Shown: in pieces, positions 8,346 to 19,462 of the stretch
How the letters are laid out: each line of letters begins with the position of its first letter
How positions within the stretch are numbered: the stretch's first letter is position 1
Assembly (NCBI RefSeq): GCF_024643285.1
Contig: NZ_JAMSLW010000002.1
Coordinates: 124,001 to 188,000, forward strand
Length of the DNA stretch: 64,000 nucleotides
From: Parapedobacter lycopersici
GTDB taxonomy: Bacteria; Bacteroidota; Bacteroidia; Sphingobacteriales; Sphingobacteriaceae
Direction: 5' to 3'
Program-made: the position numbers and the translations under genes
Notes under the pieces: model-generated
Databases searched by the model: none
Told to the model about the DNA's origin: nothing
Seen by the model: the letters and a program-made list of their open reading frames with translations, nothing else

Positions 8346-9923
8346 TTAGTGTTGTGCTGATAAATAATCCATCAACAACCTCATATTTTTAACATAAACG
8401 GCAACCGAAATATACTGCTGGTCAGAAGGGTCCAGCTTCCAATCAGCGGATAGCCGATCGGCGTGCATAGCGGTGTTGGTTTCTTGCCCTGTTCTTGGGT
8501 CAATCGAATAGGGACTGCTGATCCACTCATGTTTGGAAAGCCAGCGATATTGCGTATCCAGCGCATCGATTATTTTACTGGCATCACTTCCACTTTGTCC
8601 CGTTCCCACATTCGTATAAGGCGTTTGGAAATAATACTTTCCGGTATGCCGATTGCGGCCCTCGACCTCGATTAACGGGGAGTTTCTTGTCGCTTCTTCC
8701 TTAGCCAATGCATTCGCCTGCTCATATTCCTTTTTAAGCATTTCAATATTCAGCACCATATTATGGCCGTAGGAATACAGGTTATCCATACGATAATCTA
8801 CCCAGTACTTGCTATCATTAACACCGGTCCCTTCCCGATGTGCCCATAAAGGTTTATTGGTATCGATCTCTACGAAAAAAGAATGCGTTCTCTTTCCCTC
8901 GTCCGTCTGCTGCTGTGGGAGGCGGGCACTTTCCAGCCAGGCGATGGCATCCGGTATCCGTGCCAAAAATTTCCGATCCCCGGTATATCTGTAAAACTTC
9001 AGCAGCATCAATATATTGTCGTATGTTTGACCGGTTACAATGGAGGCAGGCTCAAAACTCCTCGCGTGTGCGGGCTGCAATTGCATATCATACTGTTGGG
9101 CCCATCCTCCCTGCGGGTTCCCCTGTTGGGTAATCAGGTAAAAATTCATGGCACGGTATATTGGTTCCAGCAAACGTTCTTCTCCCAAGGTTGCATAACA
9201 ATCGATTAAAAACTGGGTGGTGTTACGCATTACGTCATCGTTGAAGGTATAAAAGGACGAATAGTCTTCTTTTCCGTCTTTTGGATGGTTATTCATCAGT
9301 GGGTAACGCTGGGGCCAGCCGCCAATCGGGTATTGCGCATCCAAAACAAACTGGATGGCTTTGTCCAGGGAGGGTTTGATCTGTGGATCCAGCTTCTCCA
9401 AATAGACGCGCAGTAGAAAACCGGCAGCACCTGGCGTGACATTATCATCAAACGTTGCGTTGCCATAGTAATAATAGTGTTCCTCAAATCCCCATGCGTT
9501 CTTACCAATCGTCCTATACCATTCTTTCAATGACCGATCGCCAGCAAAGTCGATGAAGTAATTCCACCCGCCGCAATCGAGCTGGCCGCGAATCAACGCA
9601 TTAGCCAGTTTTAATGCCGCTTCATAGTAATACTCATCGGCAGTGACATGGTAGGCATCAAGAAACAGGTGTCCCATACCTAGGGAGCCTGGCTCTTCTA
9701 TCCTGATTTGTGTATCATAGGCTTCTAATTCATGCCACCTGCGCGTTAGATCCTCGGTATAAAGCCGCGCATAACCACCGTTTGTGCTGACATGTTCTAC
9801 CATGAACCTGGTGGCCTGCAGCATCGCTTTTTTTACGTTCGATTCCAGACTCGATTGCCCCCTGGCAACAAGCGAAAAGGTCAATAAGCAACAAAAAATA
9901 ACTATTGAATGACTGTTTTTCAT
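8346..9923 (-). CDS. Pectate lyase, PL10 type (PelA-like)
   Basis: A secreted lyase of about 525 residues expected to cleave polygalacturonate by beta-elimination. The ATG at 9923 (MKNSHSIVIFCCLL) gives a clean signal peptide ending near VARGQ; an in-frame ATG at 9971 would add 16 residues and overlap the SusD gene, so it was not used. Family signs are the alpha-helical barrel with a GGWPQRYP loop, the TFNDDVMRNT segment, a GGWAQQYD repeat of the same loop and a FEPASIVTG motif. It is longer than a bare PL10 domain, with a C-terminal extension of about 130 residues. It is the third gene of the SusC 2-SusD 2 operon and gives the best clue that the locus targets pectic polymers. Confidence 0.85.
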   Translation of the reverse strand: MKNSHSIVIFCCLLTFSLVARGQSSLESNVKKAMLQATRFMVEHVSTNGGYARLYTEDLTRRWHELEAYDTQIRIEEPGSLGMGHLFLDAYHVTADEYYYEAALKLANALIRGQLDCGGWNYFIDFAGDRSLKEWYRTIGKNAWGFEEHYYYYGNATFDDNVTPGAAGFLLRVYLEKLDPQIKPSLDKAIQFVLDAQYPIGGWPQRYPLMNNHPKDGKEDYSSFYTFNDDVMRNTTQFLIDCYATLGEERLLEPIYRAMNFYLITQQGNPQGGWAQQYDMQLQPAHARSFEPASIVTGQTYDNILMLLKFYRYTGDRKFLARIPDAIAWLESARLPQQQTDEGKRTHSFFVEIDTNKPLWAHREGTGVNDSKYWVDYRMDNLYSYGHNMVLNIEMLKKEYEQANALAKEEATRNSPLIEVEGRNRHTGKYYFQTPYTNVGTGQSGSDASKIIDALDTQYRWLSKHEWISSPYSIDPRTGQETNTAMHADRLSADWKLDPSDQQYISVAVYVKNMRLLMDYLSAQH

Positions 9924-9957
9924 CTTAACTATTTTTGACAGTAACGTGTTTACTACA

Positions 9958-11520
9958 TTAAGGCTTGGCATCCCACCACAGTTTCACCAGCCTGCCATCC
10001 TTTCCTTCCCCCAGCAAACTGATGGCTACCTGAACGGCCGCTGCATTATTTTGATATTCCATCGGCACAAACGGAATCCTTCTGATGATAGCCGTTACAG
10101 GTACTTCCGGATCCAGCGACCGGATAATGGGGTATCGTGCCGGATATCCTGTTCTCCGCAATTCGCTCCAGGCCTCCCATCCGTCAGGAAAGATGGCAAT
10201 CCATTTTTGCGTGATAATCTGCTCCAACTGCTTTTCAAAATCCGCAGCGGGATCGTATTTGACAGGGATGTCAGCCGCAGCAGGTGTATTCCACTTATCC
10301 TGGATAGCAGCCGGTACGTTATTGCTGTTGATATAATTCAGTATTTCATTTTCGGAGACCGCTGTTTCGGCCAGCAGCGATTGCCTGATACCCTCGTTGT
10401 AGAGTGCCTCTGCTGCCCCTCCCATGTTCCAGCCTCTTAACGCGCCTTCAGCCCGGAGAAAATAAACTTCGGCCGCACCCATTACTTTGATATCGGGATT
10501 GCTTCCTCCCTGGCTTACCGAGAGAAACTTAGGGCCGATGGTTGAATAATCGTCGTTGATTCCCGTTCTATCGTCGATCTCAACGCCATTTCTTAGGCCT
10601 TTGTATTCCAGACTAGCTACAGCCTGACTGAAATATACGGGAAGACGGGGGTCTTCATATCCCGTCAGAAAGCTTTCCATCGTTGCGCTCATCCGGTATT
10701 CTCCCCAGGCCGATATCTTTTCATGGGGATGGCGGGAAAGATCTGTGGTAAGCACATTGGCATTATCGGAAACCGTTTGCATCACACCCGCTGCCACCGC
10801 TTTTTCCGCTTCCTGTTTTGCCCGGGCGGGGTCGGCATAAGCGATACGGAGGGCCAGCCGCAGCCGTAATGAATTGGCGAAAATCAGCCATTTGTCCACG
10901 CTTCCTGCATACAGCAGGTCGTTCGAACCGAAGCCATTGGCTCCGGTGTTATCGGAAAGGACAGCTGTTGCTTCGTCCAGTAGCTTAAAAAAATCGGCGT
11001 AGATACTTTCCTGGCTATCGTAAGCGACACTCGTTTGCGCATTACCAAACTCCGCGTAGATAATAGGTCCCCATTGATCCGTCATGCGGTGGTATATCAT
11101 CACTTTCCAGATTTTGGTCAGCGCATTTTCCACGGGCATACCGTTTTCCGCAGTGTACTTTTCCACAAAATGGAGTTGTGGAGCAGCATTCGCATAAAAC
11201 GCCCGCCAGGCATAGCCGGCCCAATCACCCATATGAAGGTACTGGTCGCTGTTAAACCAAGGTACTGAAGTGGCGAAATATTGAACATACAAATCGGAAA
11301 ACAGGTTTTGGGCCTGCTGCATATCGCTGCCATCTCCCATAATTCCCCGGTACTGAGCCGCCGCAAATGCCTGGCCCAGCAGGCCCGCATCCAGGTTTTC
11401 GACCGAAAGGACGCCTGGAGGAATATTCATTTTATCGAAATCCTTGGTACAGCCAATACTAAATAGGAATATGATGGCATACACCGTTAACATATGAAGT
11501 TTAATCTTGTACTTTTTCAT
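9958..11520 (-). CDS. SusD/RagB-type nutrient-binding lipoprotein (pair 2)
   Basis: A 520-residue surface glycan-binding lipoprotein of the SusD-like_2 type. The start at 11520 (MKKYKIKLHMLTVYAIIFLFSIGC) gives a lipoprotein signal with Cys24; the longer ATG at 11550 adds ten residues with no visible role and would almost touch the SusC stop at 11553. The mature protein begins with TKDFDKMN and shares long stretches with SusD 1, including AEVYFLRAEGALRGWNMG and GWEAWSELRRTGYP. It lies 32 bp after susC 2 and 34 bp before the pectate lyase gene. With SusC 2 it should bind and pass on pectin-derived oligomers, by context. Confidence 0.92.
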   Translation of the reverse strand: MKKYKIKLHMLTVYAIIFLFSIGCTKDFDKMNIPPGVLSVENLDAGLLGQAFAAAQYRGIMGDGSDMQQAQNLFSDLYVQYFATSVPWFNSDQYLHMGDWAGYAWRAFYANAAPQLHFVEKYTAENGMPVENALTKIWKVMIYHRMTDQWGPIIYAEFGNAQTSVAYDSQESIYADFFKLLDEATAVLSDNTGANGFGSNDLLYAGSVDKWLIFANSLRLRLALRIAYADPARAKQEAEKAVAAGVMQTVSDNANVLTTDLSRHPHEKISAWGEYRMSATMESFLTGYEDPRLPVYFSQAVASLEYKGLRNGVEIDDRTGINDDYSTIGPKFLSVSQGGSNPDIKVMGAAEVYFLRAEGALRGWNMGGAAEALYNEGIRQSLLAETAVSENEILNYINSNNVPAAIQDKWNTPAAADIPVKYDPAADFEKQLEQIITQKWIAIFPDGWEAWSELRRTGYPARYPIIRSLDPEVPVTAIIRRIPFVPMEYQNNAAAVQVAISLLGEGKDGRLVKLWWDAKP

Positions 11521-11552
11521 TGCTATACGTTTAAAAAAGAGGCTATTCATGA

Positions 11553-14500
11553 TTAAAATCCTACGGAAAGGTTTATCCCCACCGTTCTTTGCGAAGGCCT
11601 GACATACTGGTCAATCCCTTCGGTACCCGGTCCGGTGCCAACCCGCAAATCTGCATCCACTGTCTTGGAAGCGCGGTAGAGGTAAAAAAGGTTTCTGCCG
11701 ACTAACGAGATATCGAGCCTTTTAATCGGTCCTTTTTCCAGCAGCTTACGCGGAATTTCATATCCGATGCTCAATTCCCGCAAACGCGTATTGGTAGCGC
11801 TTTCCACAAAAGCCTCTCCCACGAACAGGGAAATTCCGCCTACGTGATTCCAGAACTGCTCGGCATTGATTGCAACATTATTTGGACTTCCATCCTGCAA
11901 CACCGCCTGTTCGCCGGGGAAAAGATTCTCTCCGAAAACGAGTCCGCCCTCCCGGCCCATCAGTGTAGCTTCGGCAACACCATAGCCATGCAGCAGCGAA
12001 TTGGTAAAGGAAAGCATGGTGCCGCCCTGCCGGTGATCAATCAGTACCCGGAGATTAATACCTTTAAAACTAAAACGCTGTGAAACGCTTGCCAGCCAGT
12101 CTGGATTGAAGTTAGCCACTTTTTCCGACTGGTTCGGTGTCAGCATCGGCAATCCGTTTTCGGTCACCAATACCCTGCCCTGTCCATCCCGTTCAAACCC
12201 CCTGGCATAGATATTACCCCAGGGTTCACCCTCTTCTATTACAATCTGGCCGACTTCTACCCGCGGCCTATCGTCGGATATGGTAATCACCTCGCTTATA
12301 TTCCGTCCATAATTCAGGTCTATCGACCAGTTGAAATTTGCTTTGCGCACCGGATTTGCGGTCATCACCACTTCATAGCCGTGGTTTCTGATCTCCCCGC
12401 CATTTGAATAGTATTGACTGGCGCCGGAACCGATGGGCAGGTTAACGGTGAACAGCTGATTTCTTGTATTGGTGTTGTACACCGTGAAATCAAAACCCAA
12501 CCTGCCTTCCCAAAATTGCACATTAAGTCCGCCCTCCATGGATTCGGTCATCTCCGGCTTTAAATCAGGATTTGGCAATATATTGTTCAGTTGCAGAAAT
12601 CCATTCGTTCCACCCGGAACCAAGCTGGCCTGGCGGGATAGCATGTAGGGCATTGCAGCATTCCCAACCTGTGCCCAGGCTCCTCTTAACCGTAAAAAAG
12701 AAATGGGATCAGGAAGTGTGATCAGGTCAGAAACCACGGCACTTAACCCCACAGAAGGATAGAAATAAGAGCGGTTGTCCGCAGGCAATGTCGAACTCCA
12801 GTCGTTCCTGCCGGTAATATCGATAAAGACTGCGTTTTTCCAGCTTAAGTTAATAAAGGAAAACAGGGACGAGTTGGCGGATTCGGCAATGCTTTCGTTG
12901 GATAATATGGTTGTGCTATTTGATAGGGTGAAAAAATTGGGTACCGTCAGCGCCGGACCTGTATTGGAGGAAAGCGATTCGCTTTGCGCTTTTGCAACGG
13001 AGCCTCCAAAATTAATGCTCGACGTCCAGTTAGTCAAAAACTCCTTATTATATGAAAATATAAACTCTCCCCGGTACGATGTGGAACCGGAGCGGGTGGT
13101 GGTAAATCGTCCATTCGGCGCCTGGTTATAGGTGTCGTTATAAAGCTTTTGGTCCCAGTTGGACTGGCCTTTAATATAATTTCCCCGTGCCAGCAGGTTG
13201 ATGCCATCGGCTATCTGGTAATTCGCTGCCAGTAAGGCTTCGATTAAATCACCGGATCTTTCACTCAGAACCCGTTGCCTCAACCAGTGGGGGTTCTTGG
13301 ATATACCTGCGTTGGGCAGCCAGTAATTTTGAAACAGCTCGCCTTCTCCATTCCGGAATTCAAAATTCTTCATGTGATCCGTACGGATATTTCTTGGGAT
13401 AAGATAGACGCTGTAATTGGGACTGAAACCGCTTCCGGTCTGCACTTCGTTGGGGTACGATTCAAACATATAGTCAATCTTGCTGTCCAACGAAACCTTA
13501 TCTGTTAATTTGGTATTCCACCGGAGTGTAAGGTTGTTCCGTTTTAACTCATCGTCATAGATGATCCCGCTTGCATCGGTCCGGGTATAGTTAAAAAAGG
13601 TCTGATTTTTCTCAGTTCCGTGAGAGATGGAAATGTTGTTGCTGAAATTCAGCCCTGTCTGATAAAAATCCCGCACGTTGTTGGGCTGCGGTGATAGCGC
13701 ATATTCGGCCCCGGCGTCTTCCGGTGCGAGCGACCAGTGTTCCACCAGCTGCCCCTCCATTTTCGGTCCCCAGGAGAATTCCGACCGCTTATTGTAATTA
13801 CCTCCATTTCCCTGGCCGTATTGATTTTGAAACCGCTGTAGGATGACCGGATCGGTTAAGATCAGGTTGCTATTAAAATTGACACTTGACTCACCTGCCT
13901 TTCCCCGTTTTGTTTCGATAATAATGGCACCGTTCTGCGCAGCACTGCCATACAGCGCAGCAGCATTTGCGCCTTTAAGCACGTTCATGGATGCAATATT
14001 ATCTGGGTTCAGAATATCCGGGTTACCCGGCATGCCATCTATGATATAGATAGGTTGACTGTCGCCCGATATGGAGCGGTTACCCCTAAGCACAATCCTA
14101 ACGGGCGCGCCTACTCCTGTCCCTGATTCGGTAATTGATAAGCCGGCTACCTTGCCCTGTACCGCAAGAAGCGGGTTTGGTTCCCGCGTTTCTGAAAGTT
14201 CCTCGGAGCTTACCACTTGTGTACTATACGTTAAGGACCTGCCCTGTCTTTCCAGGCCAAGTGCGGTTACTACTACCTCTTCCAGGCTTTGGTTGTCGGG
14301 CTCAAGCGTTATCGTAAGGGAATTAGCGGATTGGACCTGTATTTCCTGGGTTAAATAGCCGATCATAGAAATGGAAATAGTACTTCCCGCCGGAGCCGAT
14401 AAAACAAAATTACCCGCCGCGTCGGTCGTGGTACCACCAGCGGAACCTTTGATGCTTACCGTTACTCCTTCCAGCGGTTCGCCCTTGGTATTTATAATCC

Positions 14501-14918
14501 TACCATGAACGGACTGCTGGCTGGCGGAAACAGGTAAGCCAATCGGAGCTACCGGCTTCGCCTTCTGTTTAACGACAATGTTCTTCCCTTTAACAATGGT
14601 GAATTCCAATGGTAAATGTTTAAAAGAAGATTGTAGGATTTCACGGATAGATAAATTCTCCGCTTTAAGGGAGAGCCGTTTACCCTGCACCAGTTGATTG
14701 TCATAAAAAAAGACGTATCCACTTTGCTGTTCAATCAATGCAAACACCTTCTCGAGTGGCATGTCCTGCACATTGAGATCAATGTTCTGGCTGTATCCCT
14801 TGGCAAAAATCTGGGTAACGGCCAACACGACCAATATGATTGTTAATTTCATAATACGCAGAAAATTAAGGGAGAATAAGGCCACACCGGGGGCCTTAAC
14901 TTTTTTAAAATAATTCAT
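11553..14918 (-). CDS. SusC-type TonB-dependent transporter with STN signalling domain (pair 2)
   Basis: From the ATG at 14918 the protein has 1121 residues: a signal segment (about 20-42, ending AKGYSQ), an STN domain (about 45-117), a CarboxypepD-regulatory-like domain (about 136-206), a TonB-box-like EEVVVTALG (213-221), plug and barrel. An STN domain is the part that contacts a FecR-type anti-sigma protein in the periplasm, and a FecR gene and an ECF sigma gene lie immediately upstream, so ligand binding here should switch on the locus. An ATG at 14978 adds 20 residues of no clear use; the chosen start matches the MKKx-type leader common in related SusC proteins. The plug motif GNRSISGDSQPIYIIDGMP shows close kinship with SusC 1. 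Confidence 0.92.
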   Translation of the reverse strand: MNYFKKVKAPGVALFSLNFLRIMKLTIILVVLAVTQIFAKGYSQNIDLNVQDMPLEKVFALIEQQSGYVFFYDNQLVQGKRLSLKAENLSIREILQSSFKHLPLEFTIVKGKNIVVKQKAKPVAPIGLPVSASQQSVHGRIINTKGEPLEGVTVSIKGSAGGTTTDAAGNFVLSAPAGSTISISMIGYLTQEIQVQSANSLTITLEPDNQSLEEVVVTALGLERQGRSLTYSTQVVSSEELSETREPNPLLAVQGKVAGLSITESGTGVGAPVRIVLRGNRSISGDSQPIYIIDGMPGNPDILNPDNIASMNVLKGANAAALYGSAAQNGAIIIETKRGKAGESSVNFNSNLILTDPVILQRFQNQYGQGNGGNYNKRSEFSWGPKMEGQLVEHWSLAPEDAGAEYALSPQPNNVRDFYQTGLNFSNNISISHGTEKNQTFFNYTRTDASGIIYDDELKRNNLTLRWNTKLTDKVSLDSKIDYMFESYPNEVQTGSGFSPNYSVYLIPRNIRTDHMKNFEFRNGEGELFQNYWLPNAGISKNPHWLRQRVLSERSGDLIEALLAANYQIADGINLLARGNYIKGQSNWDQKLYNDTYNQAPNGRFTTTRSGSTSYRGEFIFSYNKEFLTNWTSSINFGGSVAKAQSESLSSNTGPALTVPNFFTLSNSTTILSNESIAESANSSLFSFINLSWKNAVFIDITGRNDWSSTLPADNRSYFYPSVGLSAVVSDLITLPDPISFLRLRGAWAQVGNAAMPYMLSRQASLVPGGTNGFLQLNNILPNPDLKPEMTESMEGGLNVQFWEGRLGFDFTVYNTNTRNQLFTVNLPIGSGASQYYSNGGEIRNHGYEVVMTANPVRKANFNWSIDLNYGRNISEVITISDDRPRVEVGQIVIEEGEPWGNIYARGFERDGQGRVLVTENGLPMLTPNQSEKVANFNPDWLASVSQRFSFKGINLRVLIDHRQGGTMLSFTNSLLHGYGVAEATLMGREGGLVFGENLFPGEQAVLQDGSPNNVAINAEQFWNHVGGISLFVGEAFVESATNTRLRELSIGYEIPRKLLEKGPIKRLDISLVGRNLFYLYRASKTVDADLRVGTGPGTEGIDQYVRPSQRTVGINLSVGF

Positions 14919-14931
14919 TAACTTTGAAAAG

Positions 14932-15027
14932 TTTGGGTTAGTTAATTGGTTATTTGTTCCAGTATAAATAATTAGCATTTACTAATCTGGCGTTCTTGGC
15001 AGGAGTGGGTCAGACTCCTGCTTTTTT
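14932..15027 (+). ncRNA. Candidate antisense small RNA opposite the susC 2 leader
   Basis: On the plus strand a -7-like box TAACTTTG (14919-14926) is followed by a hairpin (CCAG 14959-14962, ATTAG/CTAAT 14971-14986, CTGG 14987-14990) and a textbook terminator (8-bp stem 14999-15021 plus six T). This predicts an RNA of about 96 nt lying wholly within the fecR-susC gap and complementary to the susC 2 leader. Cis-antisense RNAs opposite susC leaders are known in Bacteroides (DonS type). No good -33 box was found, so expression is inferred. Confidence 0.4.
14999..15027 (+). terminator. Intrinsic terminator facing against the surrounding operon
   Basis: GCAGGAGT, a 7-nt loop, ACTCCTGC and a run of six T form a strong plus-strand terminator although every neighbouring gene is on the minus strand. 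On the minus strand the T-run is absent, so it would act there only as a leader hairpin. It is the 3' end of the candidate antisense RNA. Confidence 0.7.
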
Positions 15028-15098: not shown

Positions 15099-16289
15099 TT
15101 ATAACACCGTAATCTTTCCATTTTTATCCGGCCATTCCGATTTTTCCAGCACGGTGTTAATGCCGGAGTAATTTAGGATGGTTAACACTTCCTGTAAGCT
15201 GACGTTACGGTATATCCGACCGGAAAATTTCCGGGAATCTGCCTGGCGGTAGGCTACTTCTACATTGTACCACCTGGAGATGTTGCGCATGATCGCTCCG
15301 ATATCGGCATCACGGAAGTCGAATAGTCCACTTTTCCAGGCAATCGTCTGCTGACCATCGGATTCACGGAGGATGATCTCATTTGCTGTTGCCGGATTTC
15401 TCGGAACGATACTCTCCTGTCCGGGCTTCATAAGTACACTGTTATTCCCGGCAATTAACCGCACCTGTCCTTCGAGCAAAACTGTTTTTACATCCGTTTC
15501 ATCGGCGTATGCGTTCACATTGAAATGCGTACCCAAAACCTGTATTGTCTGTCCATCTGCAACGACTTCAAATGGCTTTGACCGGTTTTCCACCACTTCA
15601 AAATAACCTTCTCCGGTAAGTGTTACTTGCCGCCTATCTCCAAACTGGCTCGGAAATTTCAGGCTGGATTCGGCATTTAGCCAAACATGACTTCCGTCCG
15701 GCAGTATTACCTGGAATTGTCCACTGCTTGGTGTGACTATAGTGTTGTATGCAATTGTTCCGGATGGAATGTTTTCCTGACTTTTTATATCAAAAATCAG
15801 TTTCTGTCCGTCCGATGAAACCTGATTCCCATTCGCGTGGGAAAGGAGTACACTGTCGCCATGTCCTAACACCACCCGTCTTCCATCTTCCAGTAACAGC
15901 ACAGCTTTATTGCCTCCCGGCAATACATCATATTGATTTGCGTCATTAATAAAAGAAGCCATAGGTGCTGGCCTGCTGAGGCCCTGGTAATACAGATAAC
16001 CGCCTATGACACTCAGCACGGCAATCAGGCTCGCCGCAGCAGCCATCCATTTTTTTGACCGGCGCTTTGCAGTGCTATTTTCCGTCAGTTCATCGGAAGC
16101 GATCCGGGTTTTAATTGCCGCATATATTTTGTGCTTCAATTCGTCCTTAGAAGTACAGGAATCGATCTCTTTTTTCGAATCGTTAAAGGAATTGTACCAT
16201 TGCTCGAATTCGCGCATTTCTTCGCCGGTAATTTCTCCCCGCTTCCATTTTTGCGCGAGGAAATCAATTCTTGATCCTTGCTTAGCCAT
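15099..16289 (-). CDS. FecR-family anti-sigma factor
   Basis: An inner-membrane anti-sigma protein of 396 residues. The cytoplasmic N-domain (FLAQKWKRGEITGEEMREFEQW) would hold the sigma factor, one membrane segment lies at about 81-100, the periplasmic FecR domain at about 183-280 (TPSSGQFQVILPDGSHVWLN, then LTGEGYFEV and VLGTHFNVNAY), and a DUF4974-type C-terminal domain at about 322-390 (GLFDFRDADIGAIMRNISRWY), which resembles an STN fold. The start MAKQGSRIDF at 16289 was preferred over the in-frame ATG at 16331, which adds 14 residues. It sits between its presumed sigma factor (95 bp upstream) and the STN-SusC gene, forming a complete three-part surface-signalling set. Confidence 0.92.
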   Translation of the reverse strand: MAKQGSRIDFLAQKWKRGEITGEEMREFEQWYNSFNDSKKEIDSCTSKDELKHKIYAAIKTRIASDELTENSTAKRRSKKWMAAAASLIAVLSVIGGYLYYQGLSRPAPMASFINDANQYDVLPGGNKAVLLLEDGRRVVLGHGDSVLLSHANGNQVSSDGQKLIFDIKSQENIPSGTIAYNTIVTPSSGQFQVILPDGSHVWLNAESSLKFPSQFGDRRQVTLTGEGYFEVVENRSKPFEVVADGQTIQVLGTHFNVNAYADETDVKTVLLEGQVRLIAGNNSVLMKPGQESIVPRNPATANEIILRESDGQQTIAWKSGLFDFRDADIGAIMRNISRWYNVEVAYRQADSRKFSGRIYRNVSLQEVLTILNYSGINTVLEKSEWPDKNGKITVL

Positions 16290-16383
16290 TTTTTTGGTCA
16301 GTTTAATAAGATAGCCGTTAATGGGGCGCATAACCCTACCTTATTTTTTAATTATTTTTTTAAACGGATGTGGGAGCAGCTGC

Positions 16384-16968
16384 TTAACTGACAAGTAGCA
16401 GCAACGCAACAGAAAAGTAATGCCTAAAGTGCTGCTTTAGGAATTTGAGCGCATGTGTGATGTGTTTTTCAACCGCTTTCTCTGAAATCACAAGCTTTTT
16501 GGCAATCTGCTTGTTGGTTAGGTTGGATTGCCGGCTAAGGCTGAATACCAGCCGGCATTTTTTTGGAAGTTGGTTGATTCGATACTCCAGCTGCATCGCC
16601 AACTGATCCAGATCAAATTGATAAAAGTGCACCTCCGTTCTCTCATCCTGAAGCGCCTGGCTCAGCATGTCCCGGAATTCCCTGTCTTTTAACCGCCGTG
16701 CCCTGCGATCAATAACCTCATATTTAACAGCAACGGCAAAATAATTTTCAAAGCCACGCTGCAATTTGAAGCTTTCCCGCTTTCTCCATAAATTAAAGAA
16801 AATGTCCTGAACCACTTCCTCGCCTTCGACAAGGTCATTCAGGCGGTTGCTGGCAATAACAAATAATTTGTCCCAATACTTGTCGTACAAATAGTTGAAA
16901 GCAGATTTATCGCTGTTAGCTAACAAATCTGCTATTTCAAAGTCCGTATACAAGTCATATGAATACAT
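16384..16968 (-). CDS. ECF sigma-70 factor (Bacteroidota subfamily) for the pectin locus
   Basis: A 194-residue extracytoplasmic-function sigma factor. Region 2 covers about residues 25-90 (FNYLYDKYWDKLFVIASNRL, VVQDIFFNLWRKRE) and region 4 about 130-180 (LPKKCRLVFSLSRQSNLTNKQ, then an HTH ending AVEKHITHALKFL). The last residues (HYFSVALLLLVS) form a short hydrophobic tail rather than a normal polar end. By position it is the partner of the FecR protein just downstream and should direct transcription of susC 2, susD 2, the lyase and the transglutaminase-like gene. The 146 bp separating it from the AGE gene stop contain no obvious promoter or terminator. Confidence 0.92.
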   Translation of the reverse strand: MYSYDLYTDFEIADLLANSDKSAFNYLYDKYWDKLFVIASNRLNDLVEGEEVVQDIFFNLWRKRESFKLQRGFENYFAVAVKYEVIDRRARRLKDREFRDMLSQALQDERTEVHFYQFDLDQLAMQLEYRINQLPKKCRLVFSLSRQSNLTNKQIAKKLVISEKAVEKHITHALKFLKQHFRHYFSVALLLLVS

Positions 16969-18496: not shown

Positions 18497-18778
18497 TCAG
18501 GATGATCCCGGTGTTTCCGAACCGTCGATCCTTTTCCAGATGGCATCCAGCATCCCGTCTTTTAACGCTTTCCGTCCGGCCTCATCCAGCGCAGCAAGTG
18601 CATCCGGACCGTCTTCAAACGCTTCATAATAGTCAATCAACAGGGCGTTTTCCGCCTCCGTCATCGTTCCCTCCCGATATTTTTCGAGTAGCTTGAGAAG
18701 CGCTGCTTTATTCACAATGATATAGGACTCAACTGGTTCAAATTCTGGTTCATTACTTATGTGACTCAAAATTTCCAA
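18497..18778 (-). CDS. Short stand-alone FecR-like anti-sigma N-domain protein
   Basis: Up to 93 residues, resembling only the cytoplasmic sigma-binding helices of FecR proteins (LLKLLEKYREGTMTEAENA, then IDYYEAFEDGP and KDGMLDAIWKRID). There is no membrane segment and no periplasmic FecR domain; the stop is followed after 38 bp by the AGE gene, so no lost downstream half is visible. It has no ATG at its front: the reading frame opens after a stop with TTG at 18778, and a GTG at 18715 would begin at NKAALLKLLEKY, close to where FecR proteins normally start, so the true start is undecided. It follows an ECF sigma gene at 102 bp and is its likely partner. A degraded fecR remnant is the alternative. 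Confidence 0.65.
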   Translation of the reverse strand: MEILSHISNEPEFEPVESYIIVNKAALLKLLEKYREGTMTEAENALLIDYYEAFEDGPDALAALDEAGRKALKDGMLDAIWKRIDGSETPGSS

Positions 18779-18880: not shown

Positions 18881-19462
18881 TTAAAGCAGGCCGGCAAAGG
18901 CCGTAAAAAGAACTAAAAAACGCGGCAATGAACCCTTCAGTTGCTCCGCAGCCTTGCCCAATTGATTCTGTACGGTTTTGATGGACAATCCCAGACGGCT
19001 GGCAATCACTTTGGTGGTGAGGTCGTCGTGGTGGCGTAATTTAAAAATCAGGCGCCTTTTCGGCGGCAATGCATCGATAACCCGCTCGTAAGACGTATAA
19101 AACTCATTCCGCTGGACGTTGGTGTCGGCGGTCAGGTAAGACGGGATCGTTTCCTGCAGGCAGTCAAAAAAACCATCGACATACCGTTCACGGGCAATAA
19201 GTTTCAGCACTTGATTTCGAATGGACACATTTAAATAGGCAGGAAAATTAGCGATGGGGGTTTTTTCGCGCGACCAGATATTAACGAAAATTTCCTGTAC
19301 TACATCCTTCGCATAGTCTTCATTCCTCAACCGCTTAAAGGCCTTCAGATACGCAACGCTCCAGTATTTTTCATACAACTGTCCGAAAGCAGTCCGGTTG
19401 CCGGAAGCAATTTGCTGTAATAACAGACTGTCCTGGTTTTTTTCAATGTTTAGTGAAGCCAT
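18881..19462 (-). CDS. ECF sigma-70 factor (second)
   Basis: A 193-residue ECF sigma factor with region 2 at about residues 25-90 (FGQLYEKYWSVAYLKAFKRL, VVQEIFVNIWSREK) and region 4 at about 125-175 (LPPKRRLIFKLRHHDDLTTK, SIKTVQNQLGKAAEQL). It ends in a hydrophobic tail (RFLVLFTAFAGLL), as does the other sigma factor in the window. It heads the operon sigma, short anti-sigma, AGE protein. Its promoter (19578-19607) is unusually complete and overlaps a perfect 18-bp palindrome, so the sigma gene itself seems to be under repressor control. A Cys-free, 193-residue length is normal for the subfamily. Confidence 0.9.
   Translation of the reverse strand: MASLNIEKNQDSLLLQQIASGNRTAFGQLYEKYWSVAYLKAFKRLRNEDYAKDVVQEIFVNIWSREKTPIANFPAYLNVSIRNQVLKLIARERYVDGFFDCLQETIPSYLTADTNVQRNEFYTSYERVIDALPPKRRLIFKLRHHDDLTTKVIASRLGLSIKTVQNQLGKAAEQLKGSLPRFLVLFTAFAGLL

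Follow-up and report, generated by a model that had tools for sequence, protein, structure and literature searches.

The window (the whole 64,000-nt stretch of Parapedobacter lycopersici DNA that was analysed) carries a candidate antisense element at 14919-15027, around which all genes lie on the minus strand. The site falls between the start codon of susC and the anti-sigma factor gene fecR upstream of it. The features, in order of position, are:

8346-9971, minus strand: pectic-acid-lyase-like gene
9958-11550, minus strand: susD-like gene
11553-14918, minus strand: susC, TonB-linked receptor with an STN domain, the target gene (TIGR04056, 8e-180)
14919-14926, plus strand: putative antisense -7 promoter box TAACTTTG (consensus TAnnTTTG), read directly from the DNA
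14932-15027, plus strand: predicted cis-antisense RNA of ~96 nt, its 5' end placed from the box and its 3' end from the T-run
14933-14990, plus strand: 5' domain of the predicted antisense RNA, a long AU-rich stem-loop (fold prediction)
14998-15027, plus strand: predicted intrinsic terminator of the antisense RNA, a GC-rich hairpin with an 8-9 bp stem, a 7-nt loop and six T
15099-16331, minus strand: fecR, anti-sigma factor (Pfam FecR and FecR_C, both above cut-off)
16384-16968, minus strand: ECF sigma factor gene (Pfam Sigma70_r2 and r4_2 above cut-off; TIGR02985 at 4.6e-35, slightly below cut-off)

The susC protein matches Pfam Plug above cut-off, and its STN match (E 2.2e-6, 27.8 bits) lies slightly below the Pfam cut-off of 28.4. 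Judged from the sequence, the probable susC start is the ATG at 14918-14916 (protein MNYFKKVK). The ORF opens at 14978, a less likely start because the MNYFKK start is common to the related same-genus locus described below (L002). A second ECF sigma gene (18881-19462), followed by a short ORF (18497-18778), stands apart from the sigma/fecR pair at 15099-16968.

A predicted antisense RNA over the susC leader

The initial annotation had described a -7-like box, a nested hairpin and a strong six-T terminator on the plus strand. The box was confirmed: TAACTTTG occupies 14919-14926 and adjoins the susC ATG. The terminator, claimed at 14999-15027, also held up. Its arms, GCAGGAGT (14999-15006) and ACTCCTGC (15014-15021), enclose a 7-nt loop and are followed by six T (15022-15027), and its stem of 9 pairs is the longest among the 24 terminator-like sites of a 14-kb scan, in which shuffled sequences gave 16.0 +/- 4.0 sites. 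The hairpin claimed at 14959-14990 stands as a structure but not in its extent, as in the best fold a longer stem-loop takes up 14933-14990. The predicted RNA as a whole (14932-15027) folds at -29.5 kcal/mol (z -4.8), a value equalled by 0 of 200 shuffles, with its 5' domain reaching z -3.16 as antisense RNA vs. -1.52 on the sense strand. It would span from ~14 nt upstream of the susC ATG to about -109. Rfam returned no match at gathering score in the window except a tRNA elsewhere, with chance-level hits below cut-off at the locus itself, and no family at cut-off for 11 other loci.

Box and terminator recur at susC genes of the same genome

The P. lycopersici genome holds 48 susC genes above the TIGR04056 cut-off (47 whole and one split), eight weaker matches being left out. 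Two leaders at contig ends (L035 and L053) were dropped, which gave 46 testable leaders; the start codons of L037 and of the window susC (L068) were set by hand. The detector scored two features of the antisense strand: TAnnTTTG no more than about 12 nt from the start codon, and a terminator that folds at -10 kcal/mol or better, has at least four T in eight and is centred 50-140 nt upstream. It was fixed after a first scan and inspection of sequences from this same genome. As controls, 400 kb of the genome supplied 286 gene starts.

The box was found at 18/46 susC starts, the antisense terminator at 18/46 and both at 16/46, while sense-oriented terminators were found in 2/46. Among the 286 control starts there were 8 antisense boxes, 24 sense boxes, 10 antisense terminators and 12 sense terminators. 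The combination of box and antisense terminator thus separates susC from controls (16/46 vs. 1/286; Fisher p 2e-14, for a detector tuned on these sequences). Within susC it is concentrated beside fecR, with 14 of the 22 genes that have a FecR_C match within 800 nt carrying both elements, vs. 2 of the 24 others.

Conservation in genus, family and class

The fecR-susC gap of the window was searched against 41 genomes, its own included. One genome of the same genus (G002) matched clearly, with an E-value of 3.6e-26 and 80% identity, the runner-up among the 41 reaching 1e-3. In its fecR-susC gap (L002) the hairpin is kept, with one loop base changed and one extra A beside it, the flanks have diverged, and the box reads TAGCTTTG. 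The initial annotation had regarded loss of terminator and hairpin in close relatives as grounds for refutation; no such loss is seen at L002, the sole same-genus locus with clear DNA similarity. Elsewhere, a near-copy of the window hairpin (GCAGGAGT...ACTCCTGC), its T-run on the antisense side, lies at 1501-1533 of L014 in another genome (G004), ~70 nt upstream of the minus-strand gene of a TonB-linked receptor (ORF from 1432). A contig scan for relatives yielded a single distant susC (L069, from Robertkochia) that was left out of the analysis.

As the detector had been tuned on the P. lycopersici genome, relatives offer the fairer test. The next gene was located through FecR_C (PF16344) matches in genomes of the genus, family and class, and a nearly identical detector was applied, with a terminator window of 45-150 nt. 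For the genus, 30 of 405 matches in eight genomes were used, and for the family 30 of 177 in ten genomes. For the class we used 7 of 10 matches together with 25 loci, two of which belong to the family, and 40 fetched stretches. Leaders were dropped when the match was below cut-off or within a receptor gene (L153, L157 and L159), when the gap reached 998 nt (L121) or when there was no downstream ORF (L169, L195 and L209); five repeats among 174 leaders were removed and L226-L240 were left out. The final set comprises 169 leaders from 46 genomes, including P. lycopersici, and is biased to high-scoring FecR matches, of which only part were used.

The antisense terminator occurs in 81 of the 169 leaders and in 28 of the 46 genomes, while a sense terminator without an antisense one occurs in 2/169. 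By rank, it is present in 16/30 leaders and 8/8 genomes of the genus, in 23/31 leaders and 11/12 genomes of the family, and in 24/62 leaders and 8/25 genomes of the class, where a single genome (G121) supplies 11 of the 24 and no antisense terminator was detected in the other 17 sampled. Where the gap from fecR to the next gene is at least 90 nt, 77 of 111 leaders (28 of 33 genomes) carry the terminator, vs. 2 of 34 leaders with a shorter gap. The remaining 34 of the 111 show no terminator at the set threshold. We refer below to the 81 terminator-bearing leaders as units; the RNAs predicted from them have a median length of 93 nt (range 75-135). Their hairpins differ from locus to locus, and each of nine stem levels is occupied by all four Watson-Crick pair types across the set.

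Units accompany STN receptors

The next genes of the relatives were typed by an in-house STN profile only, and not as SusC. This profile, grown from the STN region of the window receptor, matches 142 of the 169 downstream proteins. Units stand beside 81 of these 142 STN receptors and beside 0 of the 27 proteins without STN. The same division is seen in the P. lycopersici genome, where 18 of 24 STN susC genes and 0 of 22 others have the antisense terminator. The unit therefore goes with receptors able to signal to FecR.

Many unit-bearing receptors have an extension of ~10-40 residues ahead of a second Met that is followed by a signal peptide (14849-14918 in the window susC, MNYFKK...RIMKLTI), which may make the start codon doubtful in some of them. 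Pfam FecR_C also matches within some SusC frames of 1132-1160 residues (SusC genes of C18 and C16 in genome G000), towards the N-terminus, a hint that the folds may be related.

The box at the start codon

Of the 81 units, 56 have the strict box near the start codon and none has a sense-oriented box in the same window. The boxes fall into few registers relative to the start codon, with 29 at -7, 16 at -3, 10 at -8 and one each at +6 and -16. A fixed translation signal as the source of the box does not account for the three main registers. All 16 boxes at -3 go with Tyr at codon 2, which we discarded as evidence, as the box itself forces Tyr. In the 25 units without a strict box, 12 have TAnnTTTA at this place by our own reading. 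At one further locus (L141) the first ATG has no box and TACATTTG lies over the next ATG (MYKICTQ), which may be another case of register -3.

According to excerpts of PMC7366714, the consensus promoter has TAnnTTTG at -7 and TTTG at -33, and the -33 box, found in Bacteroides thetaiotaomicron, could not be identified in Flavobacterium johnsoniae. A TTG at the expected -33 spacing is absent in our window, and a general -33 element was rejected, the profile of the 56 boxes giving only a weak TTG peak at -22 (8/56). A k-mer search upstream of the hairpin for a sense promoter motif returned the 3' end of fecR (AAGGAGG), AAAAGC at the hairpin edge and AACC/AAAC words, and nothing clear.

A proposed antisense lock on susC

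We propose, with a probability of about 0.84, that the plus strand holds the gene for a cis-antisense RNA of ~96 nt, with a housekeeping-type promoter and an intrinsic terminator, that most likely restrains susC. The structured antisense RNA of this length over the susC leader, as put forward in the initial annotation, is supported at the level of sequence by the box, by the orientation of the terminator, by strand-specific folding and wobble pairs, and by its wide occurrence. The TAnnTTTG promoter abutting the susC start codon would drive a plus-strand RNA that ends at the terminator in the fecR-susC gap, its 5' part forming an AU-rich stem-loop and its 3' part a GC-rich terminator hairpin. 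By pairing with the leader of susC a short way before the start codon, this RNA would block susC translation or target the mRNA for decay; transcriptional interference may add to the effect. Pairing over its full length would require a susC mRNA that begins upstream of 15027. A housekeeping-type antisense promoter set against a target that is probably driven by the ECF sigma factor suggests that the RNA locks out leaky expression: susC would be held down until FecR frees the sigma factor. That the RNA is made, where exactly it starts, that it pairs with its target in the cell and that it represses susC are what we infer here. Repression is not certain, because the excerpted text of PMC10994844, which reports 32 annotated antisense RNAs of polysaccharide utilization loci (PULs) in B. 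thetaiotaomicron, describes both negative and positive correlation between antisense RNA and target.

Transcription might instead begin at the box and control susC by promoter occlusion or polymerase collision, without RNA pairing. The position of the box, which overlaps or abuts the start codon in 55 of the 56 units that have one, suits this alternative well. We nevertheless consider it unlikely, as it is at odds with signs of selection on the fold of the RNA, which argue that the RNA itself matters. They include the wobble pairs given below and the folding of the stretch between box and terminator; this stretch, which leaves out the terminator itself, was cut at the found box and terminator in units and fixed at -12 to -68 in controls. 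In the 81 units its mean z is -2.36 as antisense RNA vs. -0.69 as sense RNA (paired p 2e-12). The antisense and sense values are close to each other in fecR-linked leaders without a unit (-0.32 and -0.29, n=66), in other P. lycopersici susC leaders without a unit (0.00 and -0.06, n=22) and in control genes (-0.29 and -0.32, n=219).

The same asymmetry bears on the idea that the hairpin belongs to the leader of the sense susC mRNA, as a 5' stabiliser, processing site or sensor, with the opposite T-run reflecting an A-rich leader. The mRNA would form this symmetric stem as well, and a small number of hairpins qualify as terminators whichever strand is read (any sense terminator, 7/169). A strand-symmetric search, which found a hairpin in 71 of 145 fecR-linked leaders, allows the two strands to be compared. 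A run of at least five T follows on the antisense side in 60 of the 71 hairpins and on the sense side in 3, and G-U pairs fit the antisense RNA in 45 cases vs. 11 for the sense RNA (p 5e-6), with 16 other mismatches. In the 24 P. lycopersici susC leaders without fecR, the five hairpins found have no clear strand bias. Moreover, it is chiefly as antisense RNA that the sequence next to the hairpin is structured, and the start-codon box travels with the hairpin in the P. lycopersici genome (Fisher p 2e-8). The asymmetries of T-run, wobble pairs and fold therefore indicate that selection probably acted on the antisense-strand RNA. All these p-values are too small, because the detector was tuned on the P. 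lycopersici genome and the leaders share ancestry; the shared ancestry of copies weakens them but does not explain the strand asymmetry. A purely sense-strand role for the hairpin is, in our judgement, very improbable.

Least probable of all is that the terminator insulates fecR and the sigma gene from antisense transcription entering from susC, the short RNA being a by-product, which fits its orientation and its place just downstream of fecR but needs neither a promoter box at a near-fixed place on the start codon (registers -7, -8 and -3) nor a structured 5' domain.

Comparison with known antisense RNAs

DonS-type RNAs have a Rho-independent terminator at the 3' end, and DonS uses the housekeeping promoter (-7 TAnnTTTG, -33 TTTG). 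The antisense RNAs of plasmids and type I antitoxin systems are short and structured, with two hairpins, and are antisense to a 5' leader. The predicted RNA resembles the latter in being short, structured and antisense to a 5' leader, but there is no toxin or replication gene, the target being an outer-membrane transporter.

The DonS-type cis-antisense RNAs associated with PULs in Bacteroides (Cao et al., 2016) are described in PMC7366714, PMC10994844, PMC11697453 and PMC9723704, from which we draw on excerpts. In PMC7366714 the DonS family is 78-128 nt long, is divergent to susC homologues and lowers their expression; among cis-antisense RNAs generally, selected ones fold extensively and 52% have a housekeeping promoter. 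The mechanism of DonS is called unknown in PMC11697453. In the excerpt of PMC9723704, 287 antisense transcripts are reported for Flavobacterium psychrophilum and the Bacteroides case is cited as a starting point for similar work. Among the matches listed in a search of open-licence papers, no title or abstract opening mentioned a susC antisense RNA outside Bacteroides.

The likeness to DonS drawn in the initial annotation is borne out in anatomy. The predicted RNA lies opposite the 5' end and leader of a susC homologue, is ~96 nt long here and 75-135 nt over the 81 units, few of them outside the reported range of 78-128 nt, and has an intrinsic terminator at its 3' end, as RNAs of the DonS type do. 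The window has the -7 TAnnTTTG, while TTG at -33 is absent there and the set has it in 8/56. A difference from DonS is that the box of the predicted RNA sits on the start codon, in genes for STN receptors that mostly adjoin fecR. The small RNAs FopS and GibS, described with RbpB in B. thetaiotaomicron in the excerpt of PMC11697453, offer another comparison. FopS affects the translation of susC at a site close to the start codon, and the FopS members, 14 paralogues in all, have a sequence motif in common and repress specific PUL operons. The predicted RNAs differ in lying opposite their own gene and in having structure more than sequence in common.

The predicted RNA is ordinary in kind, because DonS-type RNAs are already known. 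Its unit is unusual in reach, because it occurs with most sampled STN receptor genes that have a long enough fecR gap, in several Bacteroidia families. We lean slightly towards the view that the ECF sigma/FecR/STN-receptor module has, across Bacteroidia, an additional component of ancestral origin: an antisense RNA of two stem-loops whose promoter lies on the start codon. The DonS RNAs would then be one branch of a class-wide family kept by structure and not by sequence, and these transporter genes would be under double control, by release of sigma and by an antisense lock of their own. The 81 units, spread over 28 genomes and with strand-specific signs of selection on the fold, provide many natural variants and clear mutants for the question of the DonS mechanism. 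The survey further suggests that many FecR-linked receptor genes of other Bacteroidia have beside them a control RNA that is overlooked when nutrient uptake is annotated. Control RNAs of a type described from gut Bacteroides may be widespread in the uptake choices of related bacteria.

The terminator hairpins share one further detail. An apex of the form purine-pyrimidine-G ... C-purine-pyrimidine, a pattern chosen after inspecting the hairpins, is present in 51 of the 81 units vs. 4 of 38 other intergenic terminators, a set in which some hairpins were counted once for each strand. The apex may serve as a site of contact for a protein or for another loop.
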